DNA from: a virus
Strand: one strand, 5' to 3'
IMG/VR virus record: IMGVR_UViG_3300049482_000043
Location: 1-41,619 of that record
Length of the DNA: 41,619 nt
Of this stretch, positions 1,154 to 26,939 are shown one piece after another. Both the position numbers and the translations under genes were made by a program. A model generated the notes under the pieces. That model was not told the origin of the DNA and did not search any database. It worked only from the letters and a program-made list of their open reading frames with translations. Numbering within the stretch: the stretch's first letter is position 1; each line of letters starts with the position of its first letter.

Positions 1154-2173
1154 ATGCCTATTCTTCCGGTTGGAACCGAAAGCAATATTCCCTATCAGCA
1201 GATCCTGTCGATGGCGATCGAGGATCGGTCATCGAGCTATCAGGATCTCGTCTCCGACAACAACGCACTTCTGGCGGTGATGCGTGACAAGGGCCTGTGG
1301 GAAACCTACAGCGGCCCGCGCATTCGTCAGACGCTGCAGATCGCCAAGCAAACCGCGCAGTGGTACTCCGGCTACGATGTTTTGCTTAACCCGGCGATCG
1401 ATCTGTTCGCCGACGCCTGGTTCGAGCCGAAATTTGTGGCCGTGCCCATCATCCTGTCGAACCAGGAGATCCTCAACAACGAGGGCCAGGCCCAGGTCAT
1501 GGCAGTGCTCTCCAGTTATATGGCCGCCGCTGAGCGAGCGCTGGAAGACGCCATGGACTCCGCGCTGCACGCTGCCGGCGGCGGCAAGCAGCTCACCGGA
1601 CTGCAGACGGCGATCCCGACTGCAAACACCACGGGCGTCTACGGCGGCATCGACCGCGCGCAAAACACCTGGTGGCAGACGCAGTACTTCAACGTGCAGT
1701 CGTATATGGCCGGCGTGACGCAAGTCACCTCGACCACCGTGCGTCCGCTGCTCAACCGCATCATGACGGCGCAGTCGAGAGGCAAGGACTACGCCGATCT
1801 GCTGCTGATGTCGCCGCAGCACTACGAGGCCTACGACGCCGCGACCATCGCCATCCAACGCCAGACCACCGGCACGCTTGGCAAGCTTGGCTTCTCGACG
1901 CTGGAATATATCGGCGGCGGCAAGCGCAGCACCATTGTGCTGGAAGGCGGCATCGGCTCCGACATGCCGGCCGACACCACCTACGGCCTGAACACCGACA
2001 GCTTGCGGCTGCGTTATCACCCGAGCCGTAACTTCGACAGTCTGTTCAAGGGGCAAGGCCAGATGCCAATTGATAAGGACGCCATAGCGCAATTTATTGG
2101 CTGGGCCGGCGAGCTCACAATGACGAACCCGAAGTTCAATTGGAAGATGTACGACCCGACGCCGGGTTCGTAA
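1154..2173 (+). CDS. Major capsid protein
   Basis: 339 residues, the right size for an HK97-fold major capsid protein of a short-tailed phage. The start follows an AAAGGA ribosome site. It lies right after the scaffold gene and before head-completion genes. The sequence fits known podoviral capsid proteins: an N-terminal helix, a long central helix with WYSGYDVLLNP, and a late segment with HPSRNFDSLF. A strong hairpin with a T run follows the stop, as expected for a highly expressed gene with controlled read-through. The capsid call rests on overall resemblance plus context; no catalytic motif is expected. Confidence 0.85.
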   Translation: MPILPVGTESNIPYQQILSMAIEDRSSSYQDLVSDNNALLAVMRDKGLWETYSGPRIRQTLQIAKQTAQWYSGYDVLLNPAIDLFADAWFEPKFVAVPIILSNQEILNNEGQAQVMAVLSSYMAAAERALEDAMDSALHAAGGGKQLTGLQTAIPTANTTGVYGGIDRAQNTWWQTQYFNVQSYMAGVTQVTSTTVRPLLNRIMTAQSRGKDYADLLLMSPQHYEAYDAATIAIQRQTTGTLGKLGFSTLEYIGGGKRSTIVLEGGIGSDMPADTTYGLNTDSLRLRYHPSRNFDSLFKGQGQMPIDKDAIAQFIGWAGELTMTNPKFNWKMYDPTPGS

Positions 2174-17759: not shown

Positions 17760-18048
17760 GGCTGTTTCGTTCCGTTGCTGTCGCATCAAGTGGTTGCTCC
17801 CATGGCGCGGGGCCGGAAGCGCAAGCGGCGGCGGCCCGCAACACCCCAAGATGAATGTCCACCTTTTCGAAGTCCGGTAATTCCGGTTTGTAATAGGCGG
17901 CTTGCGCAGCGACGATCCGGTGGCAATTGCCAAGGCGCGCGACTTCCGCCCGCAGCCGCTCGATCTCGTCGGCGGCCTCCTCCACCCACCCGCCGTTGAG
18001 AATGCCCATGTTAGCCAGACGGCGCAGCCGTTCAACGATGTCGGTCAT
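17743..18048 (-). CDS. Small helical protein, MTDIVERL family copy 1
   Basis: 101 residues from the ATG at 18048. It begins MTDIVERLRRLANMG and has the helix EEAADEIERLRAEVARL (about 25-42), then a second half with CHRIVAAQAAYYKPELPDF and a variable end. It overlaps the twin gene by 17 bases and its upstream gene by 4. This layout is familiar from phage-borne genes of unknown function. Confidence 0.7.
   Translation of the reverse strand: MTDIVERLRRLANMGILNGGWVEEAADEIERLRAEVARLGNCHRIVAAQAAYYKPELPDFEKVDIHLGVLRAAAACASGPAPWEQPLDATATERNSHDRHR
18026..18048 (-). repeat. 23-bp direct repeat at the start of twin genes, copy B
   Basis: Identical to 17737-17759, including the ATG of the twin gene. Confidence 0.8.
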
Positions 18049-18326
18049 CGCAGCCACCCCATGGCGGGGACAACCATTGGCCACGCCTTCGGTTGCTTGT
18101 CGAAAGGTGTCCCATCCCAACGATCCTGAAACGCCAGCGGCTGTCGCTGGCCATCCCGCCATATATCAATTGTCGCCAGGTTCGGGACAGCAGGCACCCG
18201 GTCATGGAATTTTTTGATCGACTGCGGCGGCGGCGGCTGCGGTGTCGGTTCCATGGCGGCTGCGCTGAGAATAACTGACAGCATTAAGCAGGCGGCTATG
18301 CCGACTATTTGACTGCGGTACTTCAT
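18045..18326 (-). CDS. Small exported protein, unknown
   Basis: 93 residues from the ATG at 18326, preceded by AAGG. The N-terminus MKYRSQ plus the hydrophobic stretch IVGIAACLMLSVILSAAA is a signal peptide with a likely cut after Ala-Ala-Ala near residue 24. The mature part is Pro-rich at first (PTPQPPPPQSIKKF) and later has WRDGQRQPLAFQDRWDG. No lipobox Cys follows the hydrophobic segment at a usual spacing. The role is unknown; a superinfection or envelope function is possible. Confidence 0.6.
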   Translation of the reverse strand: MKYRSQIVGIAACLMLSVILSAAAMEPTPQPPPPQSIKKFHDRVPAVPNLATIDIWRDGQRQPLAFQDRWDGTPFDKQPKAWPMVVPAMGWLR

Positions 18327-18374
18327 GGCCTTAAGTTCCCGATATGTTGCGTCAGCGTTGTGTCCCGGTGTAGG

Positions 18375-18413
18375 CACCCGGCAGCGCGGCCCCCGTCCGC
18401 TGCCGGGTGTTTT
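18375..18413 (+). terminator. Strong rightward terminator
   Basis: A perfect 12-bp inverted repeat, CACCCGGCAGCG (18375-18386) and CGCTGCCGGGTG (18398-18409), with an 11-base loop, is followed by TTTT on the plus strand only. On the minus strand no T run follows. It therefore acts on rightward transcripts, which would reach here only by crossing leftward genes from 17122 onward. Confidence 0.8.
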
Positions 18414-18650
18414 CTATTCGATCCGCCAGCAACGCCATTTGTCTTGCCACTGCCGGACCGTGAACTTGCCCTTGTGTTTTCTGGCGTAGGCCACCGCGGA
18501 AAGTCGTATCTTTTGACAGTCAGGCTTGTTGTCAATTTCGAAACTGTCCCCCGCCTCCATTTGATAGAACGGATATTTCCACTTGGGGCCTGGAGCAAAC
18601 TTGGGGACTTCGATCCCCTTTACGATCTGGTAGTCCTTCCCATTCTTCAT
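18414..18650 (-). CDS. Small phage protein (DUF7303-like)
   Basis: 78 residues from the ATG at 18650 with GGGAGGGG upstream. The pattern YPFYQMEAGDSFEI then SAVAYARKHKGKFTVRQW and a final WRCWRIE matches a widespread family of small phage proteins that reads roughly F-P-F-x-x-M-x-x-G-D-S-F ... A-x-x-x-G-K-K-F-x-x-R ... V-W-R-V/I. Its function is not known to me. It is flanked by hairpins on both sides, so it may be a separate transcription unit. Confidence 0.7.
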   Translation of the reverse strand: MKNGKDYQIVKGIEVPKFAPGPKWKYPFYQMEAGDSFEIDNKPDCQKIRLSAVAYARKHKGKFTVRQWQDKWRCWRIE

Positions 18651-18671
18651 TGTTCCCCTCCCCAACAATTC

Positions 18672-18712
18672 ACCGGGCGCAGCCTGTCGGTCAGCGCCAG
18701 ACTGCGCCCGGT
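18672..18712. terminator. Hairpin below the PEP-CTERM gene
   Basis: An 11-bp perfect inverted repeat (ACCGGGCGCAG at 18672-18682, CTGCGCCCGGT at 18702-18712) lies just downstream of the leftward PEP-CTERM gene. Neither side has a clear T run, so a terminator or mRNA-end stabiliser is a guess. Confidence 0.4.
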
Positions 18713-18750
18713 TTCACACGGCAGCGATGCGGGTCGCCGCTGTGCTACTA

Positions 18751-19485
18751 TCAAGCTGCGAGCTGTTGCTGTTGCTGCTTCCTGCGACGCAGCTTCAACA
18801 TTCCCAGGCCGGCAATGCCCGAGCCAAACAGCCACGCCGCAGCCGGAACAGGAACCGCTTGCACGTTCGGGTTGGCGACGATGTAGAAGCTGTCGCCACC
18901 GTCCGTTGCGCCGGCAAACTGCGCGCGGAAGATGAGCCGGTCGCCGGCATTGAGGCCGGTGAGGTTAAAGCCGGTCAGCAGATAGTCACCCTTGCCGTTG
19001 CCGGGGCGGATGTCGGGCATCAAGTAGGTCTGGTCGATGTGCGCCAGCCGGTCGATGGTGGTGAGGTTGGCATCGACGCGGAACAGGTCAAAGCCGATCA
19101 GCGACATGATGGTTGGCGGGTTGCCGCCTTCCGCACTGTTCACGTCGATGGCGACACCAAACGAGAAGTTGGTAGAGAACGCCGCGAGCTGCCCCACGGT
19201 ATAGGGCAGTGCGCCAAGTTCGACACCGTCAGCCAACGAGCCGCCGACAAGGTTCGTGGAGAAGAACGTGCCGGTTCCGGTCTGGCCGTTCGACACGAAG
19301 TTGTTGAAGCCGAATAGCGGAGGGTTGCTGGCCTGGGTGGCGCAGATGATGCAAGGCGCGGACTGGCTTTGCGGCACCACGGCGCTGGACGGCAGCGCCC
19401 CGAATGACAGCACGGTGTCTGCATTTGCAGGCATAGCGATAGCAAGCAGAGACGCTGCGAGCGCAGCGCCGAGTAGTCGGCTCAT
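18751..19485 (-). CDS. PEP-CTERM exported protein, probable lysogenic cargo
   Basis: 244 residues from the ATG at 19485, preceded by GAGGAA. The N-terminus MSRLLGAALAASLLAIAMPANA is a Sec signal peptide with a cut after ANA. The mature part is beta-rich with two close cysteines (APCIICATQ). The C-terminus has the PEP-CTERM tripartite tail: VPVPAAAW, a hydrophobic span (LFGSGIAGLGMLKL) and an Arg/Lys cluster RRRK, then a Gln run. Such tails are recognised by host exosortases, which process and deliver the protein to the outer surface or matrix. The gene is separated from the integrase by attP, so in a lysogen it sits at the other prophage end. It has no obvious virion or replication role. Confidence 0.85.
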   Translation of the reverse strand: MSRLLGAALAASLLAIAMPANADTVLSFGALPSSAVVPQSQSAPCIICATQASNPPLFGFNNFVSNGQTGTGTFFSTNLVGGSLADGVELGALPYTVGQLAAFSTNFSFGVAIDVNSAEGGNPPTIMSLIGFDLFRVDANLTTIDRLAHIDQTYLMPDIRPGNGKGDYLLTGFNLTGLNAGDRLIFRAQFAGATDGGDSFYIVANPNVQAVPVPAAAWLFGSGIAGLGMLKLRRRKQQQQQLAA

Positions 19486-19510
19486 GGTTGTGGTTCCTCT
19501 GTGTGGCGAG

Positions 19511-19523
19511 TGGATGGAATTTC
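19511..19523. repeat. Possible integrase arm-type site 1
   Basis: TGGATGGAATTTC matches TGGATGGAACTTC at 19629-19641 in 12 of 13 bases, with the same orientation. Both lie close to the attP core on the side away from the integrase gene. Repeats in this position can be arm-binding sites; this is a suggestion only. Confidence 0.35.
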
Positions 19524-19628
19524 GCGGAGCGCCACGCGCCGCAAGCTGGGAGTACGGACGCAGAACTGTCCGCACGTCAGGCGCACGTCCGGCCGTGCCG
19601 GCTAATGCCGGTTGTTGCCGTTCTGTGC

Positions 19629-19657: not shown

Positions 19658-19707
19658 TGGTGGGCGCTGAAGGGATCGAACCTTCGACCTTTCCCGTGTG
19701 AAGGGAC
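19658..19707 (-). other. attP core: 3' half of tRNA-Val(CAC)
   Basis: On the minus strand this reads from the anticodon stem to CCA of a tRNA. The parts are: stem GTCCC, loop TTCACAC with anticodon CAC at 19700-19698, stem GGGAA, variable AGGTC, T stem GAAGG with loop TTCGATC and CCTTC, the acceptor strand AGCGCCC, then A and CCA. No D arm or 5' acceptor strand precedes it, so it is not a whole tRNA. Tyrosine integrases commonly use the 3' half of a tRNA as attachment core, and this lies 26 bases from the integrase stop. Confidence 0.88.
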
Positions 19708-19732: not shown

Positions 19733-20761
19733 TTAGCCCGCGCTCTTTTTGTGTCGCACGTCGCCCGCACGTTTCGGTGTCGGCAGTTCGGCGGCGCGGC
19801 GGGCCTCCGCGGTGGGCTCGCTGTGGCTGTAACGCTCGACTGAGGCCATGTCCGCCCACGCGCCAGTCCTGGTGAGCCCCAGGGCGTCCAGGCCGCCGTA
19901 GAGACGCATCCACGTCGCGTAATTATGCCGAAAGACATGAAACGCCGTACGGTGCGGTAAAACGACTCCAGCGGCCTCGCTGGCCATCTCAAGCATATCC
20001 CGCAGCCGGCCGCCGTTGTGGAACCGAAACAGCCTGCCGCGCCTGTCCATGCCTCTGGGGTGGTTGGCGAGTGCCGCGACGAGGACTGGCGGCAGGTAGA
20101 CGGCGCGGGGCTCGCCCGTCTTGGTGTCGGGGATATAGGCGAACTCGCGGCGCAGCTCGACTTGCTCGCACTGCAGGCCCAGCCCCTCAGACAGCCGCAG
20201 GCCGGTGTAGTTCAGAGCTAAGCAAAGCAGCCCAAACTCAGGATCGAGCTTGGTGGCGGCCTCGATCAGCGCAAAGGCCTGTTCCGGTTTGAGCCAGAAC
20301 GTGCGCTTGTTGCCGCGCCAGCCCTTCGGGCGCTTGATCTTGCGATCCTGCCCGACATGCTTCAGGACGGCCGAGACGGGCGTGTAGACCTGGCGGTTGC
20401 GCGTCGAGGCCGGCGCCGCCGGGTACAGCTCGTTGGCCAGCGTGTCGATCGCGATCTGATCGATGTTGTGCAAGAGCTTGTCTTTCCACCGCGTTATGAT
20501 CGGATCAAGGTACTGGCGCTCGCCGCCTGCGTCCATGTACGCGACAGCCGCGGCAATGAAATAGTCGGGCTCACTTACGGGGTCCGGGCGTTTGGAAAAC
20601 TCACCACGTTCGGCTTGCTTTTTCCATGTGGCGAAGATCGCCTGGGCCGCCCGGCGCTCAGCAGTGCCTGTGCTCTTGTCCAGTGCAATGCCAAGGTACT
20701 TGCCCCGGACGAACCAGTAGGGCGAGCGGCCTTCGCGCGGTGGGGTGAGCTTCCAGGGCAT
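19733..20761 (-). CDS. int: Tyrosine site-specific integrase
   Basis: 342 residues. The N-terminal third holds the arm/core-binding region. The catalytic domain shows the full residue set: Arg189 in NYTGLRLSEGLGL, Lys214 in DTKTGEPR, His275 and Arg278 in HVFRHNYATWM, Trp302 in GAWADM, and the nucleophile Tyr311 in VERYSH. It would insert and excise the phage at a host tRNA-Val; attP lies directly after its stop. The start MPWKLTPPREGRSPYWFVRG is typical. The first 187 bases overlap the excisionase-like gene in another frame. Confidence 0.93.
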   Translation of the reverse strand: MPWKLTPPREGRSPYWFVRGKYLGIALDKSTGTAERRAAQAIFATWKKQAERGEFSKRPDPVSEPDYFIAAAVAYMDAGGERQYLDPIITRWKDKLLHNIDQIAIDTLANELYPAAPASTRNRQVYTPVSAVLKHVGQDRKIKRPKGWRGNKRTFWLKPEQAFALIEAATKLDPEFGLLCLALNYTGLRLSEGLGLQCEQVELRREFAYIPDTKTGEPRAVYLPPVLVAALANHPRGMDRRGRLFRFHNGGRLRDMLEMASEAAGVVLPHRTAFHVFRHNYATWMRLYGGLDALGLTRTGAWADMASVERYSHSEPTAEARRAAELPTPKRAGDVRHKKSAG

Positions 20762-20919
20762 GGCAAGGCCTCGATCAGGCGGTTGATGTCTTCACGCGAA
20801 AACAGCTTCCTGCGGCCAAACGTCCGATAGTAGGGGTGGACGCGCAGAAAGTCCTGCAGGGAACGGCGACTTATCCGCAGTTCGCTCGCCGCCTCGTCCA
20901 TTGTGAATAACGCTGTCAT
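20575..20919 (-). CDS. Excisionase-like helix-turn-helix protein
   Basis: 114 residues. The first 55 residues form a MerR/HTH_17-type DNA-binding domain: TMDEAASELRISRRSLQDFL, then HPYYRTFGRRKLFSREDINRL with the wing. This is the form of many recombination directionality factors. The remaining half is read from the same DNA as the integrase start in a different frame and is Ser/Pro/Arg-rich, so it is likely a passive tail. Directly upstream of the integrase, it probably controls excision. It overlaps its upstream neighbour by 4 bases (ATGA). Confidence 0.75.
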   Translation of the reverse strand: MTALFTMDEAASELRISRRSLQDFLRVHPYYRTFGRRKLFSREDINRLIEALPCPGSSPHRAKAARPTGSSGASTLALHWTRAQALLSAGRPRRSSPHGKSKPNVVSFPNARTP

Positions 20920-21084: not shown

Positions 21085-21465
21085 TCATTTCCGGCACCGC
21101 CACCGTGGCCCGTCGTACACCTTGCGTAGGTTGTGCTGGGCGCAAATGTCGCTGGCAACCACCGCGGCCTTGCGCCTTGGCAACGGCGCGGCTGCCATTG
21201 GCTCTGTGGACAACGCCATCATCAGCGGATCTCGCTCTATCGGCTTGATGCTTTCGGTCTGCACTAGTTTCGGCATGTTCAATGCCTCAAGCCGCGCCGA
21301 TGTCAGCGCCAGCGTGGCCATGTCTTCGCGCCAGACATCGTCCTGAAACGGCTTGTCGCGAAACGTATGTGCCGGCACCGGGCCACGGCCCATCGCAACC
21401 GTCCCCGCGATCGCCGCCATGACGACACCGCCGATCAGCACGCTGCGGGCCAAGGTGTGCATCAT
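21085..21465 (-). CDS. Membrane-anchored small protein, unknown
   Basis: 126 residues from the ATG at 21465, which overlaps the previous stop as ATGA. A hydrophobic segment lies at about residues 10-25 (VLIGGVVMAAIAGTVA), so the protein is anchored or secreted. The C-terminus has CAQHNLRKVYDGPRWRCRK with two cysteines, a pattern I have a vague memory of from rhizobial phage-like loci. The function is unknown. Confidence 0.6.
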   Translation of the reverse strand: MMHTLARSVLIGGVVMAAIAGTVAMGRGPVPAHTFRDKPFQDDVWREDMATLALTSARLEALNMPKLVQTESIKPIERDPLMMALSTEPMAAAPLPRRKAAVVASDICAQHNLRKVYDGPRWRCRK

Positions 21466-21800
21466 TCGGCCGACTGCGTCACCAGCGGCGCGGCCGGCAC
21501 ATCGAAGGCACGCAACTGCGCCTGGATCGAAATAAACAACGCCTCCCATTTGGCGCGCTCGGCGATCGCCCTGTCGCGCATCAACATGGCTGTCTGCTCG
21601 TTCGAGCGCAGTTCCGCGATCTCGCTATGCCGCGCCTCGATCTCGACTTTGTAGAGCACAATGTCGGACTTCAGCTTGGCATTGTCGGCGGCGAGCTGAT
21701 CGCGCTCGGCCGCTACCGCCATTTGCTGGCGGACGAACGTGTTTGCATAGGCCTCGTAGCGTTCCGGCAGTTCTGCCTTGTCGATGCCGTTGGTTGTCAT
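21462..21800 (-). CDS. Coiled-coil protein, unknown
   Basis: 112 residues from the ATG at 21800 with AGGAGAG upstream; a longer frame start upstream lacks a ribosome site. Most of the chain (about 25-95) is one long coiled coil (AAERDQLAADNAKLKSDIVL and following). It is part of the chain of small leftward genes. No specific role can be given. Confidence 0.65.
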   Translation of the reverse strand: MTTNGIDKAELPERYEAYANTFVRQQMAVAAERDQLAADNAKLKSDIVLYKVEIEARHSEIAELRSNEQTAMLMRDRAIAERAKWEALFISIQAQLRAFDVPAAPLVTQSAE

Positions 21801-21822: not shown

Positions 21823-21963
21823 TTATCGTTCACGGCTCGCATGCCATGGACAGCCCTTCTTCTTAGCTGCGCGCCATTTCCTATCGCGCGCCTTGAACGC
21901 CTCTTTGTTCTTTAGATAATAGAGGTGCCGGGTGGCCTTATCTTTCTCCGGGTTCGGTCTCAT
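21823..21963 (-). CDS. 46-residue basic protein
   Basis: The ATG at 21963 overlaps the stop of the HNH gene (ATGA). The chain MRPNPEKDKATRHLYYLKNK and beyond is very basic, with CPWH near the end. The pattern Y-Y-L-K-N-K-E-A-F-K-A-R is seen near HNH/GIY endonuclease regions of phages. It may be a DNA-binding fragment or a small partner of the HNH protein. Confidence 0.5.
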   Translation of the reverse strand: MRPNPEKDKATRHLYYLKNKEAFKARDRKWRAAKKKGCPWHASRER

Positions 21964-22352
21964 GGAGGCCACCTCTCAACATTGCCGTTCATGCGCTTGC
22001 GGAGGCCTGACGCTCGCGTGCCGGCCAGCGGGCGGCTCGTTCTCTTGATGCCCATTGAACGCTCGCGGATGCGCTTGGACTTGGCTATGGCTGGAATGTC
22101 AGCCACGCGCGTCTTGTTGCGATGCTCTGCGATCGGTAGCGGATCAAGGTTCCACGCCTCGTCAGGCCCGCCATGAGCATGTGGGATCGGGTAATGATCA
22201 AAATGAAACAGCGATATTATCTGCTCGTCAGACATTAGCTTGGCGTGTTCGTGCGGGATGATGCGGGCAAACGTCCCGTCCCCGTTGGGCCGCAACATTT
22301 GCAATAGCGCGGATGCCAGTTTTGTTCTGAGGCCGATGGCTTTGCGGCTCAT
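21960..22352 (-). CDS. HNH endonuclease-like protein
   Basis: 130 residues from the ATG at 22352. The HNH core lies at about residues 50-80: HFDHYPIPHAHGGPDEAWN followed by LDPLPIAEHRNKT, giving His53, Asn68 and His77 as likely metal or catalytic residues. The C-terminus is basic. It overlaps the larger HNH gene upstream and the basic small gene downstream, each by 4 bases. A nickase or homing role is possible. In this context it could also assist DNA processing. Confidence 0.75.
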   Translation of the reverse strand: MSRKAIGLRTKLASALLQMLRPNGDGTFARIIPHEHAKLMSDEQIISLFHFDHYPIPHAHGGPDEAWNLDPLPIAEHRNKTRVADIPAIAKSKRIRERSMGIKRTSRPLAGTRASGLRKRMNGNVERWPP

Positions 22353-22966
22353 ATCCGGACCCCATCGACTGTCCACCCATTATTGATGCGCCATTTTGCG
22401 GTTGCGTAGTTTATTCCCGATAGTTCAACAGCCTCAACTAAAGTCATTTCCTTGCCGCGGAAAACAACAAGGCGGTTGCGGCGCATGTTTCGCATTTGCT
22501 CTTTTTGCGTTGCCCATCGGCAATTGCCCGGCAAATATCCTTTTGCGTTATCTATCCGGTCTATGCTGTGTTGAGGCGACGGCCTTGGCCCCATGTCGCT
22601 TTTGAAAGCCTCAAAACTGTCGCGCCAGCGTTTGCAGACTGCAATGCCTCTTTGAGCGTAGTTTTTTGCATTAGGGTTGGATGGAGAACATCGCGCGTTC
22701 ATCCCCATCCAAAGCATATACAACTGAGTGTTTGATGCGCCGTGCTTGTATAGCGAGTGGGACTTTCCTTTCGGGCGGGTGCAACCACAACCCTTGGAAT
22801 TTCCGCTTGTTAAGTGGCATCCCATGACAACGCGCTCTGTCCCGCAGTCACAAACGCAATTCCAGTGTGCGTGTCCGTTCCTATTTTCCGCCCGAGACAT
22901 GACAGTCCATGCGGCGAGTTTTTTGCCGAGTAAAGAGTTAACCAAAGGATGAAAAACACCGCTCAT
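22349..22966 (-). CDS. Homing-type HNH endonuclease with zinc-binding N-terminus
   Basis: 205 residues. The N-terminal part has cysteines CVCDCG (37-42) and GNSKGCGCT (55-63), a likely zinc site. The HNH core is HSIDRIDNAKGYLPGNCRWA (133-152), and the C-terminus has a helix-turn-helix-like stretch (MTLVEAVELSGINYATAKWR). These are features of phage selfish endonucleases. Base composition over 22380-22980 is more AT-rich than its neighbours, consistent with recent arrival. Yet it is joined to both neighbours by 4-base overlaps, so it has settled cleanly into the operon. Confidence 0.85.
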   Translation of the reverse strand: MSGVFHPLVNSLLGKKLAAWTVMSRAENRNGHAHWNCVCDCGTERVVMGCHLTSGNSKGCGCTRPKGKSHSLYKHGASNTQLYMLWMGMNARCSPSNPNAKNYAQRGIAVCKRWRDSFEAFKSDMGPRPSPQHSIDRIDNAKGYLPGNCRWATQKEQMRNMRRNRLVVFRGKEMTLVEAVELSGINYATAKWRINNGWTVDGVRI

Positions 22967-26336: not shown

Positions 26337-26939
26337 CTAGCGGCGGGCGCGGATGCCGGTGACCCTGGCGGCCCATTCGATCCTGACGTTCTTGATCGGG
26401 CGCACTTGCTCGTCGTTTGACAGCAAATGCAGGGCTTTGCCGACCCGGACAACCTTCTTGATGAGGATGCGGCCGTCGTCCAGGCCCACGACACAGAGTT
26501 GGTTCAGCAGGTCGTCGGTAAATGGGCGCCGAACGTCGTCGTAGATGGCATACCAGCGGTCAAATACCTTGCCGAGCGACTTGCCGCGAATTTCGACGGC
26601 TACCGCATGGGCGGGATCGAGGTCCGAGGCGTGGATATGGTCGAGTTCGCCGGCTGGGTAGAACGTGGTTTCGCCGCCGGCACTGACGTAGCCAACCACG
26701 CGCAATTCCTTGCCGTGTCCGGGCTCGGCCTGATCTGTCTCGCTTTCGAGCAGCCAGTCGGTGGTAGTGTCCAGCAGGACGGCCAGCGATCCGACCCGAT
26801 CAACGTCCGGGCGATCGGTGCCGCGTTCCCAGCCTGATATGGCCTGCGACGATATCCCGAAATAGTCGCCGATATCCTTCTGCGTCAGGCCCTTGGCACG
26901 ACGCGCTTTCAAAAGCCTGTCTTTGAACGCCATCCACAC
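26337..26939 (-). CDS. CI-like repressor, XRE plus S24 peptidase
   Basis: 200 residues. The helix-turn-helix is at about 10-60 (KGLTQKDIGDYFGISSQAIS then GWERG). The S24 part begins after about residue 78. VVGYVSAGGE has the Ala87-Gly88 pair at the cleavage position, Ser121 lies in EIRGKSLGK and Lys161 or Lys162 in ILIKKVVR. Together these indicate a repressor that can cut itself when RecA is activated. It faces a Cro-like gene across a short spacer. The first ATG (26939) and one two codons later are both possible starts. Confidence 0.9.
   Translation of the reverse strand: MWMAFKDRLLKARRAKGLTQKDIGDYFGISSQAISGWERGTDRPDVDRVGSLAVLLDTTTDWLLESETDQAEPGHGKELRVVGYVSAGGETTFYPAGELDHIHASDLDPAHAVAVEIRGKSLGKVFDRWYAIYDDVRRPFTDDLLNQLCVVGLDDGRILIKKVVRVGKALHLLSNDEQVRPIKNVRIEWAARVTGIRARR

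Follow-up and report, generated by a model that had tools for sequence, protein, structure and literature searches.

A phage gene beside attP encodes a predicted exported protein with a PEP-CTERM-type tail and belongs to a nearly virus-specific family

The window (the whole stretch of 41,619 nucleotides analysed here, IMG/VR virus record IMGVR_UViG_3300049482_000043) has a 137-nt direct repeat of 98% identity at its two ends and, given this terminal repeat, is probably a complete phage genome that closes circularly. It encodes a major head protein (1154-2173, plus strand; phrog_9953, E-value 1.9e-74; 55% identity with the Rhizobium phage RHph_I3_18 protein), a large terminase and a portal, together with a tyrosine integrase (19733-20761, minus strand; PF00589, E-value 3.5e-12; 95% identical in L030-L032), an excisionase-like protein with an HTH motif, whose gene overlaps the start of the integrase gene (20575-20919, minus strand; phrog_66/phrog_1840, with an HTH_17 match of E-value 1.8e-5 that falls under its Pfam cut-off) and a CI/LexA-like repressor with HTH_3 and Peptidase_S24 domains (26337-26939, minus strand; PF01381, PF00717, phrog_4). 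With these genes and an attP, the window is apparently the genome of a temperate podovirus-like phage. The attP core corresponds to the 3' half of tRNA-Val(CAC) (19658-19706, minus strand; CCCTTCACACGGG...CGCCCACCA); the integrase relatives L030-L035 and G025 have it too, as do all close integrase relatives from the viral scan. ARAGORN also called an unusually long (97 nt) tRNA-Asn(gtt) on the plus strand (22077-22173), which overlaps the minus-strand ORF 21960-22376. Two minus-strand ORFs flanking the integrase (18045-18377 and 21085-21549) clustered with integrase-adjacent ORFs of G022 and G028 and with one G005 ORF.

On the minus strand the order is integrase, attP and then the gene studied here (18751-19485), which encodes a 244-residue exported protein and begins 172 nt from attP. 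Hence, as a preliminary description had stated, attP is all that separates this gene from the integrase. Scans for terminator-like or sigma-70-like sites between attP and the gene were empty, and no sigma-54 site of the sort that typically precedes proteobacterial PEP-CTERM genes was found upstream of it. By blastn, a 1.26-kb segment containing the gene and an ORF at 18414-18668 (18306-19569) is missing from the near-identical backbone of L032 and G022 and is replaced by 24 nt in L032, with flanks in the two relatives that are 92-93% identical on the right and 88-91% on the left; the integrase region of L032 is 92% identical to that of the window at the DNA level. L032 and G022 have their own homologue of the gene on the opposite side of the integrase. 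At this site, the gene is an addition relative to close relatives, as would be expected of a moron. A chromosome junction or an assembly artefact was considered and ruled out by the terminal repeat and by the same arrangement in G025/L033 and L035.

The N-terminus of the protein (MSRLLGAALAASLLAIAMPANA/D) reads by eye as a likely Sec-type signal that ends in ANA/D, and the corresponding signal peptide (residues 1-23, MSRLLGAALAASLLAIAMPANAD; 19417-19485, minus strand) coincides with a hydrophobic helix at residues 4-15 in an AlphaFold2 model. This model (65 homologues, mean pLDDT 81) places a beta-sandwich between the N-terminal helix and a C-terminal helix at residues 215-243; sequence inspection and the model agree in predicting membrane spans at the signal and the tail only, with none between them. 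The signal region MPANAD lacks the Cys of a lipobox. The body is low in basic residues and high in Asn, Ser and Thr, and a CIIC pair is conserved in the family. Fold searches returned no structure match for the body at E-value ≤ 0.001 and the family profile matched no PDB sequence, so no function can be read from the body fold.

The C-terminal tail (residues 211-244, VPVPAAAWLFGSGIAGLGMLKLRRRKQQQQQLAA; 18754-18855, minus strand) is tripartite, with VPVPAAAW followed by a hydrophobic span and RRRK. Against NCBIfam, residues 211-235 matched TIGR03370 (VPLPA-CTERM) at 27.1 bits, a thin margin over the cut-off of 25.35, and TIGR02595 (PEP_CTERM) at 16.2, a narrow pass over the cut-off of 16; the Pfam model PF07589 was sub-threshold (13.4 vs 20.7). 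By the curated NCBIfam cut-offs the tail is thus of the PEP-CTERM/VPLPA-CTERM exosortase-substrate type. The layout given in the preliminary description (a Sec signal, a beta-rich body and this tail) therefore agrees with the model and with the profile matches, and its proposed PEP-CTERM assignment holds at these scores.

A family-alignment scan of viral contigs recovered relatives in at least 265 IMG/VR viral stretches, of which 80 were retained. Seven close pairs gave dN/dS of 0.045-0.134, indicating purifying selection on the body. The number of relatives and these ratios confirm that the gene is more than a chance ORF, and the former refutes a one-off assembly join. By the same kind of scan, homologues were present in 2 of 84,980 bacterial and archaeal species genomes, both Comamonadaceae and both also encoding an exosortase. 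The Comamonas copy looks chromosomal, given its neighbours, ligA and a patatin gene. When 398 Pseudomonadota genomes were searched in full, the matches were otherwise at tail level only, and the GenBank phage and plasmid collections contained no homologue. The family is nearly confined to viruses and is common in soil phage contigs.

Tail classes were assigned by regular expression in 69 distinct homologues, giving 36 of VPxPA type, 15 of PEP/EP type and 18 with GPIVGAGxPG. At E-value ≤ 0.01, TIGR03370 matched 27 and TIGR02595 matched 11 of 65 members, many of them under the curated cut-off. The third class recurs as GPIVGAG(I/L)PGL, a hydrophobic stretch and RRRR (L030-L033, L035, L003-L006, L029 and others); among the members scanned, NCBIfam models failed to hit five of this class and L025 (VPIPAVGAGLPG), and the tail is possibly a sorting signal that has not been described. 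Nearly all homologues keep a Pro-rich motif before the helix, and each motif class changes as a whole. In a tree built from the bodies alone (a quick tree with SH-aLRT support only) we counted about 15 changes of tail class where the minimum would be 2, and the well-supported branches alone force 4-6 per class. Pairwise identities point the same way: the window protein and L200 share 30% of the body and 88% of the tail (amino acids), and the window protein and L006 share 68% of the body and 48% of the tail. From these comparisons we infer that tails are exchanged as modules. The signal regions probably are too, as the window protein and G028 are 79% identical in the signal region and 49% in the body (amino acids). 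Phages with this attP type carry either a VPxPA tail (the window) or a GPIVGAGxPG tail (L030-L033, L035), so tail class does not simply follow the host.

Integrases near the gene were located in the relatives by using a local integrase profile. Eight relatives with diverse integrases have one less than 1 kb from the gene (L157/G028, L005/G004, L006, L173, L184, L203, L033 and L035), so the integrase-adjacent position in the window, for which the preliminary description had proposed a survey of related prophages, is a recurrent one. In L030-L032 the integrase is on the other side, at a distance of 1.7-2.3 kb, and in L175, L198 and L199 it is 3.9-5.3 kb from the gene. G029, whose head protein is 84% identical, encodes two proteins with unrelated bodies and TPLPA tails, three genes from the integrase. 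No serine integrase was found in family-bearing phages, and G003 and G009 (both with terminal repeats) and other relatives retain the gene with no match to PF00589 or PF00239. Lysogeny therefore cannot be its sole setting. The earlier view of the gene as lysogenic cargo stands as far as the temperate phage and the attP-side location go, and is not supported as a general account, given these relatives with no detected tyrosine or serine integrase.

To identify candidate hosts, we searched genomes with a degenerate pattern covering the attP variants of the relatives. The att sequence was found exactly or with 1 mismatch in 56 of 392 genomes, in one alphaproteobacterial family (that of G075), and some of the positive genomes have duplicated att copies. 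Samples of Pseudomonadota and Alphaproteobacteria gave near matches only, and the best named plasmid match was a Bradyrhizobium plasmid (90%). Exosortase (PF09721) was detected in 1 of the 56 attB-compatible genomes, as a weak, partial match to a 99-position fragment, and strongly in 3 of 24 other members tested of the same family. No similar tail was present in the 800 kb sampled from each of two att-positive genomes, and no phage ORF matched a local profile built from two exosortases, which is a weak test. A host species cannot be named from an identical tRNA, and many of the genomes look fragmented; the rarity of PF09721 is therefore evidence against exosortase processing and does not disprove it. 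Processing of the tail by a host exosortase is thus unproven, and the dependence on such an enzyme that had been asserted for this protein is not supported in that form. The family of G712 was rejected as a host because it had no related integrase and almost no exosortase. Other elements have integrated at this tRNA-Val(CAC) site in alphaproteobacterial genomes: in host contigs L322-L324 they are bordered by an intact tRNA-Val on one side and by a duplicated fragment of att on the opposite side. Two members of the host-like family, G1240 (L330) and G1200 (L318), have exosortase loci with clustered PEPxTW-type PEP-CTERM genes.

Our tentative reading, held at less than even confidence, is that the gene is a phage moron for a Sec-exported beta-sandwich envelope protein with an exchangeable tail, most likely serving superinfection exclusion. 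The body would be exported via Sec, and the tail, with its Pro-rich motif, hydrophobic helix and basic cluster, would hold the protein at the inner-membrane/periplasm side, where a host sorting protease that acts on C-termini (an exosortase, in hosts that have one) could release it or display it at the surface. When recombination takes place in the 3' half of a tRNA gene, the host tRNA is restored on the side of the phage DNA that follows the core, so integration would leave the gene codirectional with, and 172 nt downstream of, an intact tRNA-Val(CAC) gene; to judge from the sequence, it would then lie at the prophage end, as had been proposed. Read-through from the tRNA promoter could then express it in a lysogen, and in the free phage it would lie downstream of the integrase. 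The altered envelope may keep competing phages out, whether the host is a lysogen or productively infected. Exclusion of other phages through a small exported protein placed in the host envelope is common (T5 Llp, PMC9586334), and we regard exclusion as the likeliest role by analogy with this usage and because it would serve temperate and non-integrating phages alike. Retention of the gene by phages with no detected integrase is what would be expected if it also acts in infection and not in lysogeny alone. Against this reading stand the scarcity of PF09721 among attB-compatible genomes, the lack of a similar tail in the 800 kb sampled from each of two of them, tail classes that vary among phages of this attP type, the thin margin of the tail score and the lack of a functional fold match.

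There are two serious rivals. The protein could be a plain membrane anchor with no sorting enzyme involved, the tail being a stop-transfer transmembrane helix and the body a periplasmic domain that, for example, blocks DNA entry or inhibits an envelope enzyme. The single weak PF09721 match among 56 attB-compatible genomes, the lack of NCBIfam matches for the GPIVGAGxPG tails scanned and the single long helix (215-243) of the AlphaFold2 model all suit such an anchor; a conserved Pro-rich motif and classes that switch as units exceed what a simple anchor needs, however, and the PEP and VPLPA classes match enzyme-specific models, which leaves this account doubtful. Alternatively, the protein may be sorted into the exopolysaccharide matrix as bacterial PEP-CTERM proteins are, and alter flocculation or biofilm in a way that aids the spread of lysogens or progeny phages. 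Bacterial PEP-CTERM proteins are needed for floc formation (PMC9850573), the body composition fits the few basic residues and many Asn, Ser and Thr described for them (PMC1569441), and the modelled beta-sandwich could bind sugar. Yet lectin and CBM fold matches were not significant, a recognised exosortase is mostly missing in the likely hosts, and the family also occurs in seemingly non-integrating phages, so we consider a matrix or aggregation role unlikely.

The remaining accounts fare worse against the conservation of the family. The phage might use the protein as a decoy substrate that floods or jams the host sorting enzyme and so lowers the display of EPS or surface proteins that block adsorption or lysis. 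Exchange of the tail across differing bodies, even unrelated bodies within one phage group, would fit a decoy, but strong purifying selection on the bodies is more than a mere decoy requires and the enzyme is mostly missing in the hosts; we regard this as very improbable. Still less credible is an accidental passenger, a bacterial PEP-CTERM gene that was acquired near attP and does not benefit the phage. The chromosomal homologue in an exosortase-bearing Comamonas genome and the position of the gene within an insertion beside attP are compatible with such an origin, which is nevertheless largely refuted by the spread over at least 265 viral stretches, the purifying selection and a body that is nearly virus-only.

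A broader proposal, which we consider rather doubtful, is that soil phages of several lineages encode a virus-specific class of exported proteins whose sorting tails are interchangeable, the GPIVGAGxPG tail belonging to an undescribed sorting system, and thereby remodel the envelopes of alphaproteobacterial hosts with no known exosortase.

Compared with PEP-CTERM/VPLPA-CTERM exosortase substrates (TIGR02595, TIGR03370, PF07589), the protein has a likely N-terminal signal of the same kind, a low-basic body of no known family and a Pro motif, hydrophobic helix and basic cluster at the extreme C-terminus, with NCBIfam scores that exceed the cut-offs. It differs in being phage-encoded, with a nearly virus-only body and likely hosts that mostly lack the partner enzyme; in its conserved CIIC pair, bacterial PEP-CTERM proteins being Cys-poor; and in that many relatives bear the GPIVGAGxPG tail, with no NCBIfam match in those scanned. 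Like the superinfection-exclusion lipoproteins T5 Llp, a periplasmic outer-membrane lipoprotein (PMC9586334), and Cor of T1/phi80, it would be a small phage-encoded envelope protein that uses a host export pathway and is kept in the envelope; unlike them, it has no lipobox, a larger beta-rich body and a C-terminal tail, and exclusion is here a proposed function. With lysogenic-conversion morons beside attP it shares the position of an extra gene adjoining attP, inserted relative to a close relative as a single-gene cassette, whereas relatives are also carried by phages in which no integrase was detected and, in L030-L032, lie across the integrase. GlyGly-CTERM/rhombosortase and LPXTG/sortase systems likewise use a tripartite C-terminal tail and include families with alternative tail types (PMC3237569), but they have no homology to this protein, which is phage-borne.

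Exosortase-type sorting is a bacterial system tied to exopolysaccharide. Tails of this kind are known; what is new is that a large family almost restricted to viruses uses them and swaps them, and this looks like an unreported phage means of altering the host cell envelope; our search of the open literature, a scope that leaves out most subscription journals, found no paper describing phage-encoded PEP-CTERM proteins. Such a family would mean that phages routinely use sorting systems of this type on host envelopes, and it offers a tractable route to the enzyme, so far missing, by which the GPIVGAGxPG tail would be read. The arrangement at attP also yields a concrete prediction, that the host tRNA promoter would switch on the phage cargo gene after integration.

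The preliminary description had called an exosortase-type substrate unusual for a virus; among soil phage contigs such genes are common, often with further PEP-CTERM-type genes in tandem. Tandem pairs of PEP-CTERM-type exported proteins with different bodies, their genes often overlapping, were observed in viral contigs L377, L379, L381-L384, L386, L390, L394-L398, L404, L176, L187 and L196.
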